From: Mycoplasmataceae bacterium
GTDB lineage: Bacteria > Bacillota_I > Bacilli_A > Mycoplasmatales > Mycoplasmoidaceae
Reading direction: 5' to 3'
NCBI GenBank assembly: GCA_031259945.1
Contig: JAIRKU010000025.1
Coordinates: forward strand, 1-40,283
Length of the DNA stretch: 40,283 nt
Below the pieces are notes generated by a model, which did no database searches, was not told the origin of the DNA, and saw only the letters and a program-made list of their open reading frames with translations. Shown here piece after piece: positions 35,027 through 35,242 of the stretch. Within the stretch, counting starts at the first letter, position 1; the number at the start of each line of letters is the position of its first letter. The translations under genes were made by a program, and so were the position numbers.

Positions 35027-35242
35027 ATGATCAACACAAGAGAGAGAGAGAGAGAGAGAGAGAGAGAGAGCAACTTAGTTGTTCTTGACGCTTTAGCTTT
35101 TCTTAAAAGCAAGAATTTAGCATTTGCTAGTTCTTGCTTTTTTTATTGTCTAGTTGATCATTTTCACAAGAGAGAAAAATGAAAATCTTTGACAATAAAA
35201 AGTAGCCACTTATGAATACTCCATGAACTATCACAACTTTAA
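35027..35242 (+). CDS. Leader mini-ORF of cassette 2, 71 residues in the present repeat length
   Basis: ATG-ATC-AAC-ACA runs into the AG tract as (Arg-Glu)5 and, because 16 AG units leave frame 2, continues through the palindrome, the terminator and the ribosome site to TAA at 35240, overlapping the start of the next gene at 35212. In the other three cassettes tract length places a stop (TAG or TAA) two codons after the tract. No ribosome site precedes the ATG, but the predicted 5' end lies close to it, so near-leaderless initiation is possible. Whether it is translated is unknown, and the read-through frame is broken in cassette 3, so it is unlikely to be a functional protein. Confidence 0.35.
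35039..35070 (+). repeat. (AG)16 tract of cassette 2
   Basis: Sixteen perfect AG units, the longest in the window and the most prone to slippage. It is the only tract with n = 1 modulo 3. Confidence 0.95.
35105..35146 (+). terminator. Attenuator-type terminator in cassette 2
   Basis: Outer stem AAAAGCAAGAA / TTCTTGCTTTT (11 bp) with inner stem TAGCA / TGCTA, followed by TTTATT. It lies between the promoter and the gene it serves. Its 5' arm also pairs with the upstream GCTTTT, giving two exclusive folds. Confidence 0.75.

Follow-up and report, generated by a model that had tools for sequence, protein, structure and literature searches.

A Multicopy Leader Cassette with an (AG)n Tract as a Probable Phase-Variable Transcription Attenuator in Mycoplasmataceae

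The stretch of DNA analyzed here (the window; 40,283 nucleotides) is contig C12 of the genome of a Mycoplasmataceae bacterium (G000; 848 kb in 28 contigs), in which long open reading frames (ORFs) require TGA to be read as tryptophan. A 12-mer, ATG-A(T/C)C-AAC-ACA, preceding an (AG)n tract is found at exactly four sites in the window (15533, 35027, 37928, and 40151), with n = 5, 16, 11, and 8, respectively; these sites are referred to as cassettes 1–4, and their features are listed in table 1. The cassette is ordered as follows: a -10 box, a start codon, the (AG)n tract, a small hairpin (H1), a pyrimidine stretch, an intrinsic terminator, a ribosome-binding site (RBS), and a gene. The leader-to-terminator layout proposed from the DNA sequence by the original prediction is seen in cassettes 2, 3, and 4; for cassette 1 the folding search found no terminator to follow, and it is therefore no working attenuator under the model presented below. 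A generic terminator scan of the window did not list the cassette hairpins, probably because of their bulge, and the folding search did find them. A sigma-70 scan that requires a -35 box listed no promoter at the -10-like box of cassette 2, and Rfam gave 0 matches (riboswitch, T-box) at the gathering score for positions 34900–40283. Ahead of the gene of cassette 2 lies an RBS-led ORF of nine codons, stop included (35179–35205), which may be a gene-start remnant.

Table 1. Coordinates of the cassette features in the window
Feature	Position	Strand	Remark
-10-like box TATAAA, cassette 2	35003–35008	+	Consensus reading
Leader ORF start ATG-ATC-AAC-ACA, cassette 2	35027–35038	+	35027–35035 doubles as P1 5′ arm
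(AG)16 tract, cassette 2	35039–35070	+	
Hairpin H1, cassette 2	35067–35085	+	AGAG at the 3′ end of the tract, followed by CAACTTAGTTGTTCT; contains TAG of the n = 2 modulo 3 frame
Pyrimidine-rich stretch, cassette 2	35088–35105	+	Predicted pairing with the AG tract
Intrinsic terminator, cassette 2	35106–35144	+	Stem 35106–35140, T run 35138–35144; folding search
P1 3′ arm GTTGATCAT, cassette 2	35153–35161	+	Complementary to 35027–35035
Leader ORF at present n = 16, 71 codons	35027–35242	+	Crosses the terminator
TMEM164-family membrane protein gene, cassette 2	35212–36003	+	Pfam PF14808
Leader start (37928–37939) and (AG)11 (37940–37961), cassette 3	37928–37961	+	
Terminator stem and T run, cassette 3	37995–38033	+	Folding search
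P1 3′ arm, cassette 3	38042–38050	+	
Gene for membrane-anchored surface-type protein, cassette 3	38068–38874	+	268 aa
Leader start and (AG)8, cassette 4	40151–40178	+	Gene past contig end
Terminator stem and T run, cassette 4	40214–40252	+	Folding search
Leader start and (AG)5, cassette 1	15533–15554	+	Without terminator

The claim that the 12-mer reads straight into the tract as Arg-Glu repeats is correct base for base at all four sites. For n = 5, 8, and 11 an early stop had been predicted, and a TAG or TAA is indeed located 5 nt past the tract, within the CAACTTAGTTG hairpin. The frame at n = 16 had been described as open through the terminator: it spans 71 codons and runs across the terminator and the two start codons that follow (35179 and 35212). 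TGA is read as Trp twice in this ORF, both times 3′ of the terminator, so that passage across the terminator at n = 16 is independent of the genetic code. The third class, in which n = 0 modulo 3 leads to a TAA at the edge of the stem, could likewise be verified, with the stop 2–3 nt 5′ of the stem in cassettes 2, 3, and 4.

A DNA search with cassette 3 retrieved the leader at many sites in the source genome; further genomes of the genus yielded it in a more diverged form. For a census of copies, the 36 genomes of the genus were searched for AG tracts of at least seven repeats, flanking sequence was fetched, and 49 loci were selected by eye for a tract followed by a terminator-like hairpin, with cassette 1 included by homology; this selection preceded any computation of frames and start codons. 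The 49 copies (n = 4–21, n being a minimum for copies at contig edges) are distributed over 10 of the 36 genomes: 16 in G000, 14 in G024, 5 in G023, 4 in G033, 3 in G035, two each in G027 and G006, and one each in G019, G001, and G032. Apart from the 16 of the source genome, they comprise 14/14 first-round loci from other genomes and 19 of 40 from a second round, in which 21 were dropped (11 of these were inspected). The census omits some listed tracts, either at contig ends or with a G after the tract, and two sites of the source genome are uncounted, namely L069, which has the upstream sequence and n of C24, and L070, a fragment. It should be noted that n varies among copies, each locus being known at one length. 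Contigs C12, C20, C1, C22, C25, C27, and C24 of the source genome end inside cassettes; the assembly is thus broken there and further copies may be missing. Contigs C20 and C1 both begin with the last 119 bases of cassette 4, and one of them may hold the same physical copy; the count for this genome is therefore maybe 1–2 too high.

A terminator was found by the folding search in 48 of the 49 copies, which are related to each other, with the stem starting 27–41 nt (mostly 31–37 nt) past the tract; in L119 an over-extended stem was replaced by 35–69 ahead of counting. When 95 genomes of the family were scanned for a pattern combining the tract with a T run, 11 of the 36 genomes of the genus were matched; those in G005 and G008 do not represent cassettes, and G032 was missed owing to its shorter T run. 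Two of the 59 genomes from other genera also matched this pattern, with hits that look unlike the cassette and were rejected; a scan of viral contigs for the cassette gave no match.

To describe the position of the stops, the three frames leaving the tract were read in each copy, with TAA and TAG as stop codons. Exactly one frame runs into the terminator stem in 45 of 48 copies, the exceptions being C25a with none and L073 and L076 with two each. Grouping the spacers at 70% identity leaves this pattern in 18 of 20 clusters, compared with 57% in dinucleotide shuffles, where it is the commonest chance outcome as well (P = 0.0017; the largest cluster, with 21 copies and one exception, was scored as a single hit). 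Many stem-entering frames run for about 21 nt of the stem and end at a TAG directly 3′ of the loop; a ribosome halted at this position would cover the stem. The earliest stop among the three frames is located 12–41 nt 5′ of the stem. A frame ending at the stem edge is present in 28 of 48 copies, including all three terminator-bearing cassettes of the window; the remaining copies mostly show two frames that stop well upstream.

The proposition that n is non-random modulo 3 was not supported at significance, residues 0, 1, and 2 being found in 18, 8, and 18 of 44 copies (chi-square P = 0.10). Taking the present n from the nearest start codon in 43 copies, 8 read into the terminator, 7 reach its edge, and 28 stop upstream; compared with an expectation of 1/3, the terminator-reading frame is under-represented (one-sided P = 0.026, calculated on copies that are not independent). 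L123 falls outside the 43 due to its short upstream sequence, and its frame likewise enters the terminator.

An ATG or GTG that opens into the tract from no more than 40 nt away is present in every one of the 44 copies whose upstream sequence is long enough (ATG in 42), as opposed to 55% of shuffles. They form 22 leader clusters, which corresponds to 0.547^22 = 2 × 10^-6 given cluster independence, an assumption that is only roughly true. More than one open ATG occurs in eight copies, and in 8/8 these share a single frame. The start is located 6–7 nt past the -10-like box in L081, L085, L131, L133, L135, L148, L150, and L156, which would be the position of a leaderless start; leaderless genes are reported at an average of 18.3% in five Mycoplasma genomes (PMC3160421). 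In most copies of the source genome the start is found about 18 nt past the presumed -10 box, and no Shine-Dalgarno sequence was found ahead of leader starts, so that in this genome the start is neither clearly leaderless nor led.

We consider it likely that the cassette is a phase-variable transcription attenuator run by the frame of a slippage-prone leader ORF. The leader ORF would start at or shortly 3′ of the transcription start, with the AG tract read as Arg-Glu, and a slipped-strand change in n would shift the frame used by the ribosome on leaving the tract. In an OFF frame the ribosome would stop well 5′ of the stem, the hairpin would form behind it, and transcription would end. In the ON frame it would enter the stem, often with a stop directly 3′ of the loop or downstream of the T run; as a ribosome in the stem would block the hairpin, the downstream gene, usually for a surface protein, would be transcribed. 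Cassette 2 (n = 16) is thus predicted to be ON and cassettes 3 and 4 to be OFF. The stem-edge frame is probably ON or intermediate, and the two upstream-stopping frames of most other copies would both be OFF. From what is observed in the DNA (the sequence anatomy, the frame logic, the start codons, the complementarity, and the recurrence of the cassette) we infer that the leader is translated, that the tract slips in vivo, that transcription terminates, and that expression is affected. In the trp-type attenuator of Escherichia coli, too, the ribosome on a leader ORF determines terminator formation; in contrast, neither amino-acid sensing nor a 2:3 antiterminator was found for the cassettes, and the switch would be a heritable tract length. 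Ribosome–polymerase coupling is reported to occur in Mycoplasma pneumoniae (PMC8116511).

RNA folding predictions, which describe equilibrium and are silent on kinetics, give a terminator probability of 1.00 at every n tested from 4 to 24 (11/11 copies) and still about 1.0 when the tract is removed (7/7 copies). An equilibrium switch by tract length or by an antiterminator is therefore not predicted. The original prediction had included both a link from tract length through the leader frame to the position of the stop relative to the terminator, which is retained here, and an antiterminator, which is not: no competing fold was found, the best folds preceding the 3′ arm being no better than -4.5 kcal/mol. 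H1, between tract and terminator, has a mean z of -2.17 over 48 copies and is weak or absent in C14, L076, L135, L156, and L144; in most lineages it is lengthened through a predicted pairing of the tract with the pyrimidine stretch, which is missing in G035 and G032. This pairing would suit an alternative in which tract length acts without translation, a longer tract:pyrimidine helix or an altered spacing changing terminator formation. We regard it as unlikely: the predicted terminator, at least at equilibrium, is independent of n, which fits a frame effect better than a length effect, and the start codons and the frame pattern would be left unexplained. For an attenuator run by the leader frame, we speculate that the tract:pyrimidine/H1 hairpin might make RNA polymerase pause, allowing the ribosome to keep up.

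A further helix, P1, is modeled to pair the leader start with the region between the T run and the RBS. In a swap test on 43 copies, native arms had a mean of -8.1 kcal/mol versus -6.0 kcal/mol (sd 0.4) for swapped arms, and 9 of 12 copies in G000 rank 0–2 among 31 swaps. The test speaks strongly for P1 in most G000 copies as well as in G006, G001, and G027; as a universal element it was ruled out, since most copies of G024, G023, G033, G035, and G032 gave a weak signal or none. Both arms differ in sequence in C18 (GACCACAC/GUGUGGUC), L148, and L156. Full-leader folds show P1, the tract hairpin, and the terminator together in nine copies, which were hand-chosen mostly for a good P1. It is speculative that P1 would shut off the leader start after the full mRNA exists.

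The near-inverted ends formed by the P1 arms, the high copy number, and the several contigs that end inside copies are also what a spreading repeat, mobile or gene-converted, could display, with a neutral AG tract and an accidental leader ORF. That the cassettes are such a repeat seems improbable, however, as the copies sit between promoter-like sequence and an RBS-led gene, the P1 arms co-change in the three copies mentioned so that no single end sequence is kept, and the start codon and frame pattern are kept among leaders less than 70% identical. This conservation of the frame/terminator arrangement among diverged leaders is part of the attenuator interpretation.

Judged by their N-termini, the downstream genes mainly encode lipoproteins or membrane-anchored surface-type proteins, one of them with BspA-type leucine-rich repeats. 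Five of ten downstream proteins had no match in a Pfam scan; among the other products are the TMEM164-family protein at window position 35212, a zinc alcohol dehydrogenase (L085 in G023), and methyltransferase-family proteins (L149 and L150 in G035). With the alcohol dehydrogenase behind an AG leader, the switch would extend to a metabolic gene. At L149, L150, and L151 of G035 the methyltransferase-family gene starts 4–5 nt past the T run with no RBS there, and an AGGAGG-like sequence is located 5′ of the hairpin; reinitiation or hairpin bypass is possible at these loci.

The proposed mechanism has a demonstrated precedent in the pil1 locus of Streptococcus gallolyticus, where slippage of a leader-ORF repeat leads to ribosome-induced loss of the terminator and increased transcription (PMC3894217). 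As described there for pil1 and pil3, the cassettes combine an out-of-triplet repeat in a leader ORF with an intrinsic terminator and surface genes downstream: the repeat unit is not divisible by three and lies within an ORF with its own start in 44/44 copies, the terminator separates leader and gene in 48/49, and the frame sets the stop either upstream of or within/past the hairpin in 45/48, the same shift as reported for pil1 (PMC3894217). The upstream stop of the pil1 leader is 39 bp away (PMC3894217), and the cassettes show the 12–41 nt given above. Unlike in pil1, where GCAGA pentamers occur at two pilus loci (PMC3894217), the cassettes carry AG dinucleotides at many loci per genome, precede lipoproteins and other surface proteins, and have in addition the conserved tract-adjacent hairpin, the pyrimidine stretch, and, in some lineages, P1; pil1 was established by experiment, whereas the cassettes are known here as sequences. 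The original prediction of three expression states agrees with the data as far as a third stop class exists in the copies with a stem-edge frame, and disagrees with the two upstream stops of most others. A pil1 isolate whose leader peptide ends directly 5′ of the hairpin is described as having a large share of highly expressing cells (PMC3894217), which argues against a separate third state; a three-state switch is no more likely than one with two states, and the stem-edge class may simply be ON.

Slippage of an (AG)n tract that sets a reading frame is also described in a Mollicute, for mod (MmyCI) of Mycoplasma mycoides, with conserved TAA stops of the other frames just past the tract (PMC3498834); unlike the cassette tract, which is in a leader ORF before a terminator and a separate gene, the mod tract is within the coding gene. 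Coding-type variation as in mod does not apply to cassettes 2 and 3, the leader frames of which end before the gene or out of frame with it. An exception is L144 (G032), where the open frame of the tract continues for 234 codons without a Pfam match. By an NPAF motif its product may be methyltransferase-like, and the locus may be an ordinary coding tract with an internal hairpin. All 11 inspected of the 21 dropped tracts lead into open frames of 87–348 codons, so AG tracts in translated N-termini do occur in this genus. AG tracts beginning long open frames are found at L118, L124, L128, L129, L130, L136, L137, L145, L152, L153, and L154; several of these resemble DNA methyltransferases by motif, and they apparently represent ordinary frameshift phase variation of coding genes, alongside the leader cassettes.

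The GAA-repeat promoters of vlhA in Mycoplasma gallisepticum resemble the cassettes in being purine repeats upstream of multicopy variable surface genes (PMC6258824), and a trans-acting factor that binds the repeat, as DNA or RNA, according to tract length has been proposed for such mycoplasma repeats; we find this explanation very improbable here, as the vlhA repeats are located in the promoter region, 5′ of the promoter (PMC6258824), whereas the cassette tract is in the leader, 3′ of a -10-like box, and flanked by a start codon and a terminator.

Attenuation by leader-ORF slippage (pil1) and frame switching by AG repeats (mod) are already known. No Mollicute leader-ORF version of slippage attenuation was found in the open-access literature searched, and we therefore count the multicopy, surface-protein, Mollicute form as new, as well as the covarying helix that, in part of the copies, pairs the leader start with sequence preceding the RBS. 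If the attenuator interpretation is true, leader-ORF slippage attenuation, proven in the literature found for streptococcal pilus loci only, would be a general route to surface variation at many loci in small genomes; the ON or OFF state of each copy could be predicted from its sequence alone, and the cassettes would provide a simple test of ribosome–polymerase coupling in Mollicutes. A broader reading, which we hold only tentatively, joins frame-slippage attenuation across the genome with a three-way-junction leader in some lineages. Its first part would concern at least a dozen genes in each genome, most of which encode surface proteins, resulting in combinatorial surface variation. In its second part, the tract:pyrimidine hairpin, the terminator, and P1 would form the junction, and P1 would pair the leader start with the sequence before the RBS after read-through, ending leader translation and freeing the gene start.

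Two further repeats were observed in the window. The surface-protein gene of cassette 3 contains a perfect tandem duplication of 42 bases, or 14 codons (38344–38428), which could yield size variation. A (TG)12 tract is located at 320–343, and (TG)n or (CA)n runs also adjoin the leaders in L063 and L070.
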